A stretch of 64,000 bases of DNA from Candidatus Kryptobacter tengchongensis (GTDB taxonomy: Bacteria; Bacteroidota; Ignavibacteria; Kryptoniales; Kryptoniaceae): assembly GCA_001485605.1 (NCBI GenBank), contig FAON01000004.1, positions 1-64,000 of the forward strand, written 5' to 3'. This document shows positions 18,533 through 25,150 of this stretch, piece after piece. Under the pieces are notes generated by a model. That model was not told the DNA's origin, did not search any database, and was given only the letters and a program-made list of their open reading frames with translations. Positions within the stretch are counted from its first letter, which is position 1, and each line of letters begins with the position of its first letter. The position numbers and the translations under genes were made by a program.

Positions 18533-19696
18533 TTACTTCGTTTTAAATTTTTTATCATAATTAAGGACATTGTATTTATTGAGGATTTCCAGAACTTTAC
18601 CTATTGGTATTGCCTCAACCTTTCTGCCCATATATCCAGTTATCGTCGTTGCTTTTAAAATTGAGTTGTAAATTGCTTCTTCTGTTGCTTCTACGACAGC
18701 TTGAAAAAGTGGTGAAAGAGCAAAGTTTGGCAAAACTTTTATTGTTTGCGGTTGATAATCCTCTATTGATTTAATTCTACAATCTGGATTTGTAGAAAAA
18801 GCTATGACATAATCACCGCTTCCGTTTGTAGATGGGGAACCAGTCCTTGCAAGTCCAAGCATTGCTCTTTTTGCAAGTCGTTTTAATTGATTTGGCATAA
18901 GTGGAGCATCTGTTGCGATCACAATTATAATTGAGCCATCTGCTTTTTCAAGCTCATTTTTAAGATAAAACTTGCCAAGTTCAAGCCCAACAGGTGCTCC
19001 GTTTATGCTTAAAATTCCACCAAAATTTGTTTGCACGAGAACTCCTACCGTCCATCCACCAAGATTTTTGGGTAAAACCCTTGAAGCTGTTCCTATCCCC
19101 CCTTTCCAGCCAAACGCGATCGTCCCAGTCCCAGCTCCAACCGAACCTTCCTCAACTTCTCCAGAACTTGCAGAATTTATCGCATCAAGAACATCTTGAT
19201 ATGTGATAACTCTATCTTGAATTTTGTTAAGATAGCCATCATTTGTTTCCCCAACGACGGGATTAACGGAGCGGATCTCCATCCCAGATTTTTCAAGTGT
19301 AAACTGAATTAACGCATCCGCAACCTTTGGCACCGCAAGTGTGTTAGTAAGGGCAATTGGTGTTTCAAGTTCCCCAAGCTCTTCAATTTGAGTTGAGCCG
19401 ACAAATTTTCCAAACGCATTTCCAGCATAAAACGCGCAGGGAACTTTTTCCTTAAATATATCACCTTCATGCGGGATTATCACCGTAACTCCCGTCCTTA
19501 TACTATCACCTTTGATTATCGTTTTATGTCCAACTTTTACCCCTTTAACATCGGTGATCGCATTATATTTTCCAGTTGGTAAGATCCCAACCGCAATTCC
19601 CAATTCTCTTGCCCTATACCTTCTTTCGCTTTCCTGTGAGAGCATGATTGAAGTAAAAATTTGTTGCAAAAAAATTAACAAGAATAAAACTTTCAT
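18533..19696 (-). CDS. S58-family (DmpA-type) self-processing peptidase, secreted
   Basis: 387 residues with a signal peptide (about 1-20), then the P1/DmpA aminopeptidase fold of the N-terminal nucleophile type. The ITDVKGVKVGH opening, PVVGETNDG and GSVGAGTGTIAFGWKGGIGTAS are characteristic. Self-cleavage should occur at Gly254-Ser255 in KADGSIIIVIATDAP, leaving Ser255 as the nucleophile of a 133-residue beta chain, close to the size known for DmpA. Likely releases N-terminal residues or beta-amino acids from short peptides in the periplasm. Its start overlaps the ubiX stop (ATGA). Confidence 0.9.
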   Translation of the reverse strand: MKVLFLLIFLQQIFTSIMLSQESERRYRARELGIAVGILPTGKYNAITDVKGVKVGHKTIIKGDSIRTGVTVIIPHEGDIFKEKVPCAFYAGNAFGKFVGSTQIEELGELETPIALTNTLAVPKVADALIQFTLEKSGMEIRSVNPVVGETNDGYLNKIQDRVITYQDVLDAINSASSGEVEEGSVGAGTGTIAFGWKGGIGTASRVLPKNLGGWTVGVLVQTNFGGILSINGAPVGLELGKFYLKNELEKADGSIIIVIATDAPLMPNQLKRLAKRAMLGLARTGSPSTNGSGDYVIAFSTNPDCRIKSIEDYQPQTIKVLPNFALSPLFQAVVEATEEAIYNSILKATTITGYMGRKVEAIPIGKVLEILNKYNVLNYDKKFKTK

Positions 19697-20307
19697 TCTT
19701 CCTCACCCCATTTTTTGTAAAGGTTATGTTTTACTCCAAAAAGAGTTAAAACTTTCCCAGCTATGAAATCAGCAAGCTCTTCAAATGTCCTTGGCTTATG
19801 ATAGAAAGCTGGGGAAGCCGGAAGAATTTTAGCGCCAGCTTGAGTAAGTGTAAGCATATTTTGAATGTGAATTAAATTCAACGGGGTCTCACGAAAAACA
19901 AGAACGAGAAGGCGATTTTCCTTCAAACAAACATCCGCGGAACGCTCAATTAAATTTGAAGATGTCCCATTTGCAATCCCAGAAAGCGTCTTAACAGAAC
20001 AGGGAACCACAATCATACCATCCGTTTCAAAAGAGCCACTTGAAATCCTCGCTTTTAAATCTCTGAAATTGTATTTTACGATCTCGCCATTCTCAATCTC
20101 TGAACCAAACATCTTTCTAAAAATTTCCATTGGCTCCCCAGCCCTAAGATCAATCCCGCATTCATCCTTTAAAACAAAATTTCCATAGTCCGAAACAATA
20201 AGATGAATTTCAAAACCGTGGATCAAAAATGCCCTTATCGTCCTCACCGCATAAATTCCACCACTTGCGCCCGATACTCCAATTATCACCCTCCGCTTAT
20301 TTGACAT
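19693..20307 (-). CDS. ubiX: Flavin prenyltransferase UbiX
   Basis: Makes prenylated FMN, the cofactor of UbiD-type decarboxylases, from FMN and dimethylallyl phosphate. 204 residues, normal length. The GVSGASGGIYAVRTI nucleotide loop, the VVPCSVKTLSGIANGTSSNLIERSADV segment split across FMN- and prenyl-binding loops, and RETPLNLIHIQNM are all typical. No ubiD gene is next to it here; the partner decarboxylase must be elsewhere. It overlaps the membrane protein gene before it by 22 bases and the S58 gene after it by 4. Confidence 0.94.
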   Translation of the reverse strand: MSNKRRVIIGVSGASGGIYAVRTIRAFLIHGFEIHLIVSDYGNFVLKDECGIDLRAGEPMEIFRKMFGSEIENGEIVKYNFRDLKARISSGSFETDGMIVVPCSVKTLSGIANGTSSNLIERSADVCLKENRLLVLVFRETPLNLIHIQNMLTLTQAGAKILPASPAFYHKPRTFEELADFIAGKVLTLFGVKHNLYKKWGEEE

Positions 20308-21941
20308 TTGAAAATCCTCCCTACCTTTCGTTTCAAAATTTTTAAACTATATCTTTCAACAACCATAAGAAAAATTAAAAATGGTAAAAGCACAAAATAA
20401 CTTTTAGAAATTATAACTAATCCATAGATTCCCTTCTCAAATATCACAGCTATGAAAACCGCCATCAATGCAAAAATCTGGGCAAATATCTTCTCGGCTG
20501 AACTTAACTTTTCATATGGCTGACTTAAAGGCAAATTAACGAAAAAAAGCAAGGCAAAATTAAAAAATACCTTCAGGATCAAAAGCGTTATGAAAATATG
20601 CAGAAAAACAGCTAAAAACTCACCCGTCCTGATCAAATATGTAAAGAAGAAAATAACGAGCAATGGAATTAAAATATGATGCCAGAGAACCATAAAACCA
20701 GAGCGAAATGTCTCATAAATTTCATCCATGCCGATGAAGTTATAAACCCAGTTTGCTTCATAATCCCGATGATTTTGTATAGCGGTAATCCCAGCGATGA
20801 CATTAAAGAAAAGTGAAATTAACATCATAACATTTGCCCTTGATGCTGGTTCAAGAATTGGATTTCCAACCCGATCTAAAGTTAAAAGGTAGACGGCTAT
20901 TGCAATTGATATAACAAATGCTGATAAAATTTTGACCCTGATAGACCTGTCCCTTCTTAAGTAGACATAAACGAGCTCATAAATTGCAAAAGTTGACCCC
21001 GTTTTGAAGAATAATTTTTTAAACCTTTTCAAAATTTCAATGAACCAGTAACTCACACCTTCACCTCTTCCCGAATTATACCCAACAAGTATGTTCTTGA
21101 GATTTTCAAGCTTCAGAAAGAAAACAGGACTTATTAGAAGCATCAAAAACACAATCACGATAATTTCAAAAAACTTTAAACTCTCATAACCAACGCCCGA
21201 CAATATGATAAAAATTTTTGGAAAAACAAATTGTGGTAAAATCGCAATGAATGAAAATTTCCTGTCCAGAAGTGTAAATATGCCATCGCTTTCATTAGAG
21301 GTAAGGTATTTGTTAAGCACTTGATAAATGAAAAACACAGCGAAGACAGCAAAAATTTGCAGTGGGAAAATAAATTTTTTGAGCCTTTCAATCTTGACCC
21401 CCCTTCCAAGAAAAAGCAATCCAAGAAGCACAAAATTTGAAATTAAAACCACATATAAAAACGAAACGAATAGATATGAAAGTGAAATTTTCAAAAACGA
21501 ATTTTCATAAATTCCAGAAGTAAAAAAATTCAAAATTGAAAGAACAAGCGCTGGCGAAAGATTGTAAGAAAAACTTAATAAAGAAATAAAAAACAAGAAA
21601 TTGAAATACTTCGCTAACCCATAAATTGTTTGGTTGATGGGTAGAAATGAAAAAAATTCAACTTCCAGCGGATTTAATAGGAGTAAATCAAACTCAACAA
21701 TTATTGTAAATGCAATTAGCAGAAATTCAAGCGAGAAAATTACAAAAGAAAAATCAAGAAGAAACAATCTCAAATTTTGTTTGTCTATTCCAGAAATTGC
21801 AATTGTGGAACTTAATATGAAAAACCATAAAAAATTCGTCACAAAAATCAAAATGAGCCTGCCATACGAAATCTTCCCTTCTTTCCTCGTGCGAAGGTCA
21901 ATTTTGAGTAAAAACTTAAATATCTCCAGAATCAACTTCAT
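20286..21941 (-). CDS. Polytopic membrane protein of unknown function, 551 aa
   Basis: I do not recognise this protein confidently. It has about 13-14 hydrophobic segments spread over the full length, with short charged loops and a long loop around residues 270-310 (VGYNSGRGEGVSYWFIEIL). The arrangement of two halves of about six helices resembles ABC-2-type exporter permeases, but no ATPase gene is adjacent, so this is a weak suggestion. Its start overlaps the end of the chorismate mutase-MltG gene (4 bases) and its end overlaps ubiX, so it is translated within the same transcription unit. Confidence 0.75.
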   Translation of the reverse strand: MKLILEIFKFLLKIDLRTRKEGKISYGRLILIFVTNFLWFFILSSTIAISGIDKQNLRLFLLDFSFVIFSLEFLLIAFTIIVEFDLLLLNPLEVEFFSFLPINQTIYGLAKYFNFLFFISLLSFSYNLSPALVLSILNFFTSGIYENSFLKISLSYLFVSFLYVVLISNFVLLGLLFLGRGVKIERLKKFIFPLQIFAVFAVFFIYQVLNKYLTSNESDGIFTLLDRKFSFIAILPQFVFPKIFIILSGVGYESLKFFEIIVIVFLMLLISPVFFLKLENLKNILVGYNSGRGEGVSYWFIEILKRFKKLFFKTGSTFAIYELVYVYLRRDRSIRVKILSAFVISIAIAVYLLTLDRVGNPILEPASRANVMMLISLFFNVIAGITAIQNHRDYEANWVYNFIGMDEIYETFRSGFMVLWHHILIPLLVIFFFTYLIRTGEFLAVFLHIFITLLILKVFFNFALLFFVNLPLSQPYEKLSSAEKIFAQIFALMAVFIAVIFEKGIYGLVIISKSYFVLLPFLIFLMVVERYSLKILKRKVGRIFKCQISGG

Positions 21942-23335
21942 TTAATTTTTTCGTTTGTTTTGCTTCGCTCACTTCTTTCAGCAAGAGCTTTTCTATATCT
22001 TCTCACCGCTTTAAGATGCTCATCATATGTTCGTGAAAAAACATGTCTCCCACTCCCATCAGAGACGAAATATAAAAACTTATTTTTCTCAGGATAGAGA
22101 ACAGCTAGAATTGAACTTCTGCCTGGATTATTCACAGGTCCTGGGGGCAAGCCAGGATTTAGGTATGTGTTATAAGGCGATTCAATTTTTAAATCTTTAT
22201 AAAACAATCTTCTCGGTCCATCTGGAATTATATATTGAATCGTTGGGTCAGCTTCAAGTGGCATCTTTCTTTTTAAACGATTAAAATATACACCCGCAAT
22301 TCGCTGTTTTTCATCCTCAAACCTTGCTTCCCCTTCAACTATTGAAGCAAGCGTCACAACTTGATGAGTATTTAATCCAACAACTTTTTCCCTTTCCATC
22401 AAACTATCATTGTAAAATTTCTTAAACTCTGAAACCATTTTCTCAATCACTTTTTCTTCATCATCTCCCCACACGAAAATATATGTATCTGGCATAAGAT
22501 AACCCTCAAGCCCATTTGCCTGTATCCCAAGCTTTTGTGCAAAATCAGCGCTGTTGACAAGTTGCATAAATTTTGTTGAGTCAATCCCAATTTTTGATTT
22601 CAATATACCTGCGATTCTTCGTGCGGTTATCCCTTCTGGAATTGTGACGCTTATGGATATAATATAGGCTGGATTTGTTATCTCTTTTACCACAATAGCC
22701 ATTGGCAGATTATCTATAAAAATGTATCTTCCAGCCTTAACCTTTCTATCAAAGCCAAGCACTTTGCCGGTATAATAAAAAATTATTTTACTTTTCAAAA
22801 TCCCCTCGGAGTTTAAAATTTCAACTGTTTGTTTAAATGTTGAATTTTTAGGTACCTCAATAAAAACAAACTTGGTCGCAGGAGAGTTGGAAAGGAAAAA
22901 TTCACTGTTGATTATATGAAGAAAAATTAAAATCAGCAAAATTACAAGTTTCCTTAAAAGGTCAAACATCGCTTTTCCTGAAAACGAATTCACATTTATT
23001 GCTTGAATTTTATTTTTTCCTCTGAGTTCCGCTGATTCCCTTTCAAGTCGTCTTGACTCATCAATGATTCTTTCATATAACCTTTTAATTGCCATATCCG
23101 ATAAAGGACCGTAATTATGTTTCATGACATTCTGGATGACCTGACTTTCTCGTTCTGGTGAATAGATGGGTAAATTCAATTTTTGTTTTATTTTTCCGAT
23201 TTCGTTTGCATACCTCGCTCTTCTATTTAGAAGTCGGACAATTTTGATATCAATTTTATCAATTTTTTTGCGCCACCTTTCAATTTCATCATAGTATTTA
23301 TTTTTTCTCTTCAACCAGTCCATTTTTGAGCTCAC
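21938..23335 (-). CDS. mltG: Chorismate mutase (AroQ) - endolytic transglycosylase MltG in-frame fusion
   Basis: One uninterrupted 465-residue frame. Residues ~17-100 are an AroQ chorismate mutase; catalytic residues Arg22, Arg39, Lys50, Arg62, Glu63 and Ser94 are conserved, with Glu98 where E. coli has Gln88. A membrane helix (about 126-145) is followed by the MltG domain, with LEGYLMPDTY, catalytic Glu334 in LASIVEGEA and EADPTIQY. MltG terminates glycan strands. Chorismate mutase would be cytoplasmic and MltG periplasmic, so the fusion is topologically possible. An internal ATG at 22969 (Met123) has AGGA 6 bases upstream and is where a normal MltG would start, so both products may exist. 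The GTG at 23335 overlaps trpA; ATG at 23323 is an alternative start. Confidence 0.88.
   Translation of the reverse strand: MSSKMDWLKRKNKYYDEIERWRKKIDKIDIKIVRLLNRRARYANEIGKIKQKLNLPIYSPERESQVIQNVMKHNYGPLSDMAIKRLYERIIDESRRLERESAELRGKNKIQAINVNSFSGKAMFDLLRKLVILLILIFLHIINSEFFLSNSPATKFVFIEVPKNSTFKQTVEILNSEGILKSKIIFYYTGKVLGFDRKVKAGRYIFIDNLPMAIVVKEITNPAYIISISVTIPEGITARRIAGILKSKIGIDSTKFMQLVNSADFAQKLGIQANGLEGYLMPDTYIFVWGDDEEKVIEKMVSEFKKFYNDSLMEREKVVGLNTHQVVTLASIVEGEARFEDEKQRIAGVYFNRLKRKMPLEADPTIQYIIPDGPRRLFYKDLKIESPYNTYLNPGLPPGPVNNPGRSSILAVLYPEKNKFLYFVSDGSGRHVFSRTYDEHLKAVRRYRKALAERSERSKTNEKIK
22976..22979 (-). promoter_or_regulatory. Internal Shine-Dalgarno for a stand-alone MltG
   Basis: AGGA on the minus strand, 6 bases before the in-frame ATG at 22967-22969 (Met123 of the fusion). 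The encoded N-terminus from that ATG (MFDLLRKLVILLILIFLHII) is a typical MltG membrane anchor, so internal initiation is plausible. Confidence 0.5.
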
Positions 23336-24095
23336 TTATAAATTCAAAGGCAACTTTCACACACTTTGAAATTTCGTCAATGTTGAAGAGCTTTTTTATC
23401 AGCGCTGATCCAACCACAGCGCCATCAGCCCATCTCCACGCCTCTAAAACATGATCTCGTTTTGATATACCAAATCCAACGACAAATGGTTTGTTTGAGT
23501 TTGCTCTAACCCTCAGCATAAAGTTTTCAAAATCTTCTCCGCCGAATTCTTCCCTCTCACCTGTTACACCCATAACCGACACGCAATAAACAAAATGGGT
23601 TGATTTTTCCGAGACCAGCTTTATACGCTCATCGCTTGAAGTCGGAGCGACAAGAAATATATTGCTCAATCCATATCTTTGAGAGATTTCAATTAATTTA
23701 TCTGCCTCATCTATTGGAAGATCGGGGACTATAACTCCATCAACGCCGTTTGAGATAGCTTCAACGACGAAATTTTCAATTCCACGACTTAGAATTGAAT
23801 TATAATAACCCATCAAAATAATTGGCGTTGAATATTTTTTCCTAAATTTTGAAACATCGTCCAAAATTTTTTTAAAACTTGCCCCGTTTTTAAGAGCAAC
23901 ATAAGAAGAATGCTGAATCGTGGGTCCATCTGCTATCGGATCACTGAACGGAATTCCAATTTCAATCATATCACTCCCAGCATCAAAAAGCCCTTCAAGT
24001 AAGGGTAAAGTCACTCCTTTGATTGGGAATTCAGGCGTAATGTAAGGAATTAACATTTTATTTTTGGTATTTAAGACATTTTGAATTCTGTTCAT
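23298..24095 (-). CDS. trpA: Tryptophan synthase alpha chain
   Basis: TIM-barrel enzyme of 265 residues cleaving indole-3-glycerol phosphate to indole, which passes to the beta chain. Catalytic Glu and Asp lie in DMIEIGIPFSDPIADGP. The loop GVDGVIVPDLPIDEA and phosphate-binding VGFGIS and GAVVGSAL segments are present. trpB is not adjacent, so the rest of the pathway lies elsewhere. It overlaps by 38 bases the start of the chorismate mutase-MltG gene, which links it to another aromatic amino-acid enzyme. It starts 12 bases after tsaD. Confidence 0.96.
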   Translation of the reverse strand: MNRIQNVLNTKNKMLIPYITPEFPIKGVTLPLLEGLFDAGSDMIEIGIPFSDPIADGPTIQHSSYVALKNGASFKKILDDVSKFRKKYSTPIILMGYYNSILSRGIENFVVEAISNGVDGVIVPDLPIDEADKLIEISQRYGLSNIFLVAPTSSDERIKLVSEKSTHFVYCVSVMGVTGEREEFGGEDFENFMLRVRANSNKPFVVGFGISKRDHVLEAWRWADGAVVGSALIKKLFNIDEISKCVKVAFEFISELKNGLVEEKK

Positions 24096-24106: not shown

Positions 24107-25150
24107 TTAAATTTTTAAATTCGGGACAGGGGCTAAATCAAAATCATGTTTAATTCCACTTTTAAGTTTAATATATCCAACGAAAGCGATCATTGCAGCG
24201 TTATCCGTGCAATATGCAAGATCTGGGATGTAAAGCTTTAAGCCTTCATTTTCAGCTTTTTCCTTCATTGTTTTTCTGAGTTCGGAATTAGCGGCAACCC
24301 CACCTGCAATGGTTATGTTTTTTACATTAAAATCTTTCGCTGCTTTTATAGTTTGCTCAACGAGTGCTTCAACCACAGCCCTTTGAAAACTTGCGCTTAT
24401 ATCTCTTATCAATTTGTTTTTTTCCTCTTCCCCAAGACTTTGAAAGTTTATTTTTTTCAAATAATAAAGAACCGCGGTCTTTAAACCGCTGAAGCTGAAC
24501 TCATATTTGTTCAACTCATCGGTTTCCCTTGAAGATTTGCTTTTTGAGGATGGTATTGGCTTTGGAAATTTCACAAAATTTGGATCACCTTCACGGGCAA
24601 GTTTATCTATAAATGGTCCCCCGGGGTAACCAAGCCCCAAAAGTTTTGCTACTTTATCAAAAGCTTCCCCAGCTGCGTCATCTCGGGTTTGCCCGAGAAG
24701 TGTCAACTTCAAAAAGTCCTCAACGAGAATAAGCATAGTATGACCACCCGAGACAACAAGCGCTATAAATGGAAAATCCGGATGCTCATCCATAAGGAAA
24801 GTTGAAAACACATGACCTTCAATATGATTGACACCAACAATTGGAATTTTTAACCCATAAGCCATCGCTTTTGCGAAGCTAACGCCAACAAGTAATGAAC
24901 CAATCAATCCAGGTCCATAGGTTACAGCAATTCCATCAATTTCTTCTTTCTTAATCCCCGCTGAGGTTAAAGCTTCATCTACAACTTTTACAATTACCCT
25001 TTGATGTGCCCTTGATGCAAGCTCTGGGACAACGCCACCATATTTTGAATGAAAATACTGAGATGAAACTATACTTGAGAGCAATTTCCCATCCTTTAAA
25101 ACAGCAGCGGATGTTTCATCGCACGATGTCTCTATCCCAAGAACTATCAC
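24107..25150 (-). CDS. tsaD: tRNA N6-threonylcarbamoyladenosine transferase TsaD
   Basis: Catalytic subunit of the essential t6A37 tRNA modification complex, 347 residues. The ASKHA fold is clear: IETSCDETSAAVL near the start, the metal-binding HIEGH (His109, His113), VSGGHTMLI and DDAAGEAFDKVAKLLGLGYPGG, and the C-terminal DNAAMIA. Start codon is GTG at 25150, since the protein begins exactly at the family N-terminus (IVLGIETSC). First gene of the long minus-strand run; divergent from the comF-like gene. Confidence 0.96.
   Translation of the reverse strand: MIVLGIETSCDETSAAVLKDGKLLSSIVSSQYFHSKYGGVVPELASRAHQRVIVKVVDEALTSAGIKKEEIDGIAVTYGPGLIGSLLVGVSFAKAMAYGLKIPIVGVNHIEGHVFSTFLMDEHPDFPFIALVVSGGHTMLILVEDFLKLTLLGQTRDDAAGEAFDKVAKLLGLGYPGGPFIDKLAREGDPNFVKFPKPIPSSKSKSSRETDELNKYEFSFSGLKTAVLYYLKKINFQSLGEEEKNKLIRDISASFQRAVVEALVEQTIKAAKDFNVKNITIAGGVAANSELRKTMKEKAENEGLKLYIPDLAYCTDNAAMIAFVGYIKLKSGIKHDFDLAPVPNLKI

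Follow-up and report, generated by a model that had tools for sequence, protein, structure and literature searches.

Is a chorismate mutase (CM) of the AroQ type, lying in one frame with the peptidoglycan transglycosylase MltG, part of a single working protein, or is such a frame better explained by two separate products, by an inactive N-terminal appendage, or by an error in the DNA? The question is raised by a gene in the 64,000-nucleotide (nt) stretch of Candidatus Kryptobacter tengchongensis DNA analysed here (the window; contig FAON01000004.1, positions 1 to 64,000). An unbroken frame on the minus strand runs from a GTG at 23335 to a stop at 21938, with 465 codons ahead of the stop, and encodes, in order, AroQ CM, a linker, a hydrophobic membrane helix and MltG/YceG. 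The Pfam CM_2 profile matched residues 21–98 (E = 3.2e-24; 85.4 bits against a cut-off of 27) and YceG matched residues 159–446 (E = 2.1e-83; 280.4 bits against 32.4), while the TIGR00247 profile matched the MltG part with 242.2 bits (cut-off 103.4). With both domains above their Pfam cut-offs in one frame, the in-frame fusion proposed by a first-pass annotation of this DNA is genuine. No PDT, PDH or DAHP synthase domain was present among the Pfam matches of the protein. We consider it probable that the product is one two-ended membrane protein, with CM inside the cell and MltG outside, derived from old neighbour genes that became joined.

The frame is indeed open from GTG 23335, where it had first been taken to begin, but translation likely starts at ATG 23323, which lies 26 nt inside trpA and yields a protein of 461 aa. 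In four other members of the genus (G001, G002, G005 and G006) the frame is blocked by a stop and holds a single codon ahead of the Met equivalent to ATG 23323, which makes this the likely start. The features of the gene, all on the minus strand, are as follows.

21938..23323, minus strand: cm-mltG fusion gene, coding for 461 aa when read from its likely start, ATG 23323; the open frame extends back to GTG 23335
23042..23275, minus strand: AroQ CM domain (Pfam CM_2 match); aligned active-site residues R22, R39, K50, S59, R62, E63, S94 and E98, numbered from GTG 23335
22967..22969, minus strand: internal ATG preceded by AGGA, earlier put forward as a start for MltG alone; the genus does not conserve it
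22892..22948, minus strand: membrane helix, placed at the stretch of 19 residues with the highest hydrophobicity (126–144 of the 461-aa form)
21998..22861, minus strand: MltG/YceG domain (Pfam YceG match)
22328..22330, minus strand: catalytic Glu codon, E336 in the numbering from GTG 23335; the residue aligns with E. coli E218

The two ends of the protein

Fused proteins from 26 of the 27 fused loci described below (all but that of genome G156) were aligned with E. coli CM and compared at eight active-site residues of that enzyme. R11, R28, K39, R51, E52 and S84 of the E. coli enzyme were present in all 26. The AroQ site, earlier described as nearly complete, keeps six of the eight residues; the positions of D48 and Q88 differ (see below). 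An AlphaFold2 model, built with the 26 fused proteins as input, had a mean pLDDT of 80.8 and a pTM of 0.58. Its N-terminal part showed the all-helical AroQ fold and superimposed on PDB entry 2d8e with a Z score of 11.7 and a root-mean-square deviation (rmsd) of 1.0 over 87 residues; such a Z score is modest for helical proteins, and the identification as CM rests on the sequence match.

The MltG end had been described as intact, with E334 as its catalytic residue. The first part of that claim holds, but E334 was rejected as the catalytic position: the residue that aligns with E218 of E. coli MltG (sequence taken from MG1655), known as the inactivated catalytic residue (PMC8135044), is E336. 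This position is Glu in 26/26 fused proteins and in all 56 aligned MltGs encoded next to a separate CM gene, while the E334 column contains E (23), D (1), K (1) and Q (1) among the fused proteins. The modelled MltG part matched PDB entry 4iiw best, with a Z score of 21.4 and an rmsd of 8.8 across 280 residues, followed by 8yq7 (Z score 20.9, with an rmsd of 3.5 across 223 residues) and 2r1f (Z score 19.5, with an rmsd of 5.5 across 250); the last of these bears the name predicted aminodeoxychorismate lyase. Residues 107–115 and 358–395 were modelled with low confidence, and the model does not fix the relative placing of the two ends.

Rates of change differed along the protein. In six pairs of close relatives, nonsynonymous divergence (dN) was lower in CM (0.010–0.064) than in MltG (0.028–0.12) in every pair. 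Synonymous divergence was about 0.3 in one pair; in the others, the values for CM and MltG were close to 1, higher, or undefined. The linker had the highest dN in five pairs (0.066–0.655); in the sixth it was 0.053, between the values for CM and MltG. From their sequences, both ends look functional.

The model places a helix at residues 115–143. All 26 fused proteins have a single dominant hydrophobic stretch, although the runner-up is close in a few genus members (1.74 versus 1.44). Charges flanking the helix fit a cytoplasmic N-terminal end clearly in two further families, f22 and f26, and in most of the sister family, f2. This layout of an N-terminal CM, one helix and MltG permits a working bifunctional protein, as had been suggested. 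The AroQ domain would lie in the cytoplasm and convert chorismate to prephenate for phenylalanine and tyrosine synthesis, the helix would span the inner membrane, and the MltG domain would cut newly made peptidoglycan on the outside; MltG is known to trim nascent glycan (PMC8135044). AroQ active sites are shared between two intertwined chains (PMC10520331), so the fusion is probably at least a dimer and would work in that form.

The ATG at 22969 bears on the alternative that the gene gives two products, either because a separate MltG is made from an internal start or because the fusion is cut after synthesis. Both the ATG and its AGGA exist, a Shine-Dalgarno-like start is found in the linker of seven of the 19 fused proteins from outside the genus (ATG in G017 and G018, GTG or TTG in five others), and relatives in which the fusion appears to have been split again use real starts in the linker region. 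However, a pattern scan found no Shine-Dalgarno-like start at this place in any of the six other genus members. We therefore reject the 22969 start as a feature that the genus conserves, although it may operate in single species. Many linkers lack an ATG altogether, and the position of the start is not shared. We regard two products as unlikely, and one continuous protein as the better description of the gene.

Recurrence of the fusion

The CM alignment was searched against 391 genomes of the class, and 96 of them gave a match at 1e-12. Loci were selected for a CM or MltG match, and the sample is therefore not random; L122, L143 (second CM of the window genome, G000), L134–L137 (AroC-CM) and L138 (PheA of G081) were left out of the classification. 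Among the 98 genomes classified, 27 had the fusion, 61 had adjacent aroQ and mltG genes, six had MltG without a CM nearby and four had CM without an MltG nearby. Counting genomes with classified loci, the fusion was present in 7/7 members of the genus, 8/13 of f2, 11/21 of f22 and 1/4 of f26. Four of the five non-fused f2 genomes have separate adjacent genes; in the fifth, G015, MltG lies at the edge of its contig and no CM is visible. Outside the genus and f2, long CM frames added ten CM-MltG fusions in f22 and one in f26, and G156 (f22) came from a phylum search. Among the matches listed outside the class in that search, every one that spanned both domains held at least one stop. The remaining long CM frames were four chorismate synthase-CM proteins and one CM-prephenate dehydratase. 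The former (L134–L137, from G065, G038, G306 and G081; f12 and f18), in which an AroQ CM is attached to the C-terminal end of chorismate synthase, are another unusual AroQ fusion from the same class.

The fusion is thus not the isolated oddity it had seemed, but recurs at 27 loci in four families. In these, the 40 codons that follow the CM domain are free of stops in frame in 27/27 cases (by definition), compared to 4/27 in each of the other frames. This recurrence led us to reject an assembly or sequencing artefact (a lost stop or a false frameshift), as well as a single lost stop codon. Most of the assemblies are drafts, and the split of the two genes in G007 does look like a one-base difference, an apparent insertion. 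The fused loci nevertheless come from different assemblies, including LDXX01000001.1 and NZ_CZVW01000008.1, and an artefact is scarcely credible. The same locus is fused in every genus member, and consistently separate genes in close relatives, which would have spoken against the fusion, were not found.

A lost stop codon had also been considered as the origin of the fusion. However, the two genes are in different frames in 49 of the 61 adjacent pairs, so the loss of one stop alone would not fuse them in most relatives. The genes of 59/61 pairs lie within −40 to +50 nt of each other, 15 with a 4-nt overlap, where gaps were measured from the CM stop to the closest start codon, a choice that biases them towards zero. 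In family f6 the arrangement is different: at all six loci (L011, L012, L014, L015, L018 and L020) the MltG start is in the same frame, directly or at most 6 nt after the CM stop, and the pair is therefore one stop codon short of fusion.

On a tree of TsaD, CM and MltG (96 rows; the search was quick, branches are long and several forks within f22 are unresolved), the fused state requires at least 10 changes, six of them forced by starred branches, although these counts do not separate gain from loss. An earlier tree of TsaD only (66 rows) gave nine changes, four forced. Placing all 27 fused rows in one clade was rejected (p-AU = 4e-53). Three f2 genomes, G010, G016 and G019, have two frames and are placed within the fused f2 rows; the frames overlap by ATGA in two of them, and AGGAG precedes the new ATG in the third. 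These three appear to have been re-split from the fused state. Joining seems to have taken place repeatedly, and one group has apparently reversed it.

Copy number and the chorismate mutase end

Exactly one MltG was found in each of the 27 fused genomes. No second AroQ CM was found in 26/27, and no AroH-type CM in any of the 27. Prephenate dehydratase is present in 26/27 and prephenate dehydrogenase in 24/27; the TyrA of the window genome has no CM domain. Since the fusion holds the sole recognisable CM and the sole MltG in nearly all of these genomes, both ends should be needed. For the same reason, these cells most likely keep their CM anchored at the membrane's inner face.

Several observations weigh against this reading. 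At the position of E. coli D48 the fused proteins have S (18) or N (8), and at Q88 they have E (15), Q (10) or no aligned residue (1); E. coli TyrA also departs at D48, and has E at Q88, in the same alignment. Within the genus, the positive-inside charge pattern is weak, with 3–4 Lys and Arg before the helix and 3 after it. The window genome carries a second CM, a CM-prephenate dehydratase of the PheA type (L143), on contig C3. G156 (L203, f22) has neither a recognisable prephenate dehydratase nor a recognisable dehydrogenase. Some drafts are incomplete (G005, 71%; G002, 78%), and a second CM could be missed in them. Finally, a single early fusion followed by many later splits would be a conceivable, if less likely, history.

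Contig C3 also carries a second chorismate synthase. Tetranucleotide use in its first 40 kb correlates with that of non-C3 stretches at 0.43–0.66, compared to 0.66–0.89 among the non-C3 stretches themselves, and the second CM there may therefore be a binning error or acquired DNA. A second CM of this type was absent from all six congeners.

The departures at D48 and Q88, which set most of the fused proteins apart from E. coli PheA, raise the possibility that the CM end has become an inactive scaffold or dimerisation piece. We consider this very unlikely for the fusion as a whole, given that the six other site residues are kept in 26/26 proteins, that CM has the lowest dN in the protein, that the fusion is the only CM in 26/27 genomes and that prephenate dehydratase is kept in 26/27. 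G156, which also has the weakest CM match (49 bits), is the single genome where the CM end could be inactive, and it is possibly losing or changing its role there. Elsewhere, we infer that both activities are retained.

Neighbouring genes and related systems

The genes around the fusion in the window are listed below.

24107..25150, minus strand: tsaD, upstream of trpA; member of a conserved gene block
23298..24095, minus strand: trpA, upstream neighbour; 26-nt overlap with the fusion gene
20286..21941, minus strand: downstream gene, 551 aa, without a Pfam match; its ATG overlaps the stop of the fusion by 4 nt
19693..20307, minus strand: flavoprotein gene (UbiX-like by reading only); often found further downstream in relatives

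The 551-aa product is hydrophobic by eye. A scan for promoters and terminators gave 13 and 2 sites, which is uninformative next to the 10.9 and 2.1 of shuffled sequences.

Neighbourhoods were compared among the best 80 of 388 confirmed named loci, comprising 11 fused, 36 adjacent and 33 without MltG in the flank; the last group contained 27 loci from Acidobacteriota, one from Gemmatimonadota and five of unnamed phylum, two of the 33 having less than 400 bases of flank. Within the limits of the flanks, trpA and tsaD lie upstream in 11/11 fused loci, and trpA in 25/33 of those without MltG. The adjacent loci had both genes in 22 cases, trpA only in two, tsaD only in six and neither within the flank in six. 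In f22 and f26, tsaD lies ahead of the gene and no trpA was found there. In the wider phylum, the order is trpA-aroQ-mltG-flavoprotein in f32, tsaD-aroQ-mltG in f40 and aroQ-mltG in f37 and f50 (one genome each). The fusion is one case of a repeated joining of aroQ and mltG, long-standing neighbours that share a block with tsaD and, frequently, trpA; this old gene order put the pair within reach of fusion. The least demanding reason for the joining would be that overlapping genes are expressed together, with each end doing its own job.

A further possibility extends this explanation rather than opposing it: the two ends may be functionally coupled, such that the CM dimer sets the oligomeric state or place of MltG, or that binding of chorismate or prephenate tunes MltG, and growth of the wall would then keep pace with the supply of aromatic amino acids. 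The repeated origin of the fusion agrees with this, as do the persistence of aroQ-mltG without adjoining trpA or tsaD (6/36 adjacent named loci) and the position of pabC directly before mltG in E. coli. Moreover, N-terminal segments in the cytoplasm occur in other MltGs too, and phosphorylation of that segment alters drug resistance in E. faecalis (PMC12369325). On the other hand, re-split relatives exist, the linker changes fast in five of the six pairs, and tsaD lies immediately before mltG in 6/17 loci without CM (three of the six checked with Pfam, the others read by eye), and the neighbourhood can thus be accounted for by gene order alone. We therefore hold such coupling to be doubtful. 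It is similarly improbable that the protein is a transmembrane device in which turnover of chorismate or prephenate, or the CM dimer itself, governs the activity or oligomeric state of MltG, such that glycan-strand length tracks the supply of aromatic amino acids, and that selection repeatedly joined the genes for this purpose.

In E. coli MG1655 (L163:1801-3635), pabC, another chorismate-pathway gene, ends 2 nt ahead of mltG. Here too mltG is directly downstream of a chorismate-pathway gene, but the genes are separate, the enzyme is a different one, and the arrangement may be coincidence.

PheA (CM-prephenate dehydratase), TyrA (CM-prephenate dehydrogenase) and DAHP synthase-CM likewise carry an AroQ domain at the N-terminus, in frame with another enzyme, and the CM sequence described here is nearest, among PDB entries, to the CM domains of DAHP synthase-CM (2d8d, 5gmu, 5j6f). 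Known AroQ fusion partners act in aromatic synthesis (PMC1173090, PMC10520331; see also PMC4921024). In contrast, the partner here is a membrane-bound wall enzyme, and CM would be tied to the membrane. Exported fusions of CM with cyclohexadienyl dehydratase are likewise rare and have arisen more than once, and no catalytic benefit of the joining was found; they differ in being of the AroQ gamma type, in being exported and in having the next pathway enzyme as partner (PMC10520331). With other endolytic murein transglycosylases of the MltG/YceG family, the fusion shares a full YceG domain, the catalytic Glu and one N-terminal membrane helix. The MltGs of E. faecalis and S. pneumoniae have cytoplasmic segments, that of E. 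faecalis being predicted to be disordered (PMC12369325, PMC8135044); unlike the usual MltG, the fusion bears a folded enzyme on its cytoplasmic end. Both domains are ordinary members of their families, and the trait that unites the bifunctional AroQ enzymes, a partner from within the pathway, is absent.

We found no report of an AroQ-MltG fusion in the open-access literature, although domain-architecture databases may list it. PMC7481392 pairs chorismate mutase with MltG/YceG terms only through TyrA in a substrate table, and the word "chorismate" does not occur in the main text of the Kryptonia paper (PMC4737851).

In these bacteria, Kryptonia of hot springs and some of their relatives, a central cytoplasmic biosynthetic enzyme is apparently present only as the tail of a membrane-bound enzyme that cuts the cell wall. 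If true, this would give chorismate mutase a new place in the cell and a partner from outside its pathway. Nature also offers here a single gene pair, aroQ and mltG, that has been joined repeatedly and apparently split again, which lets the question of whether gene fusion signals function or mere neighbourhood be tested directly.

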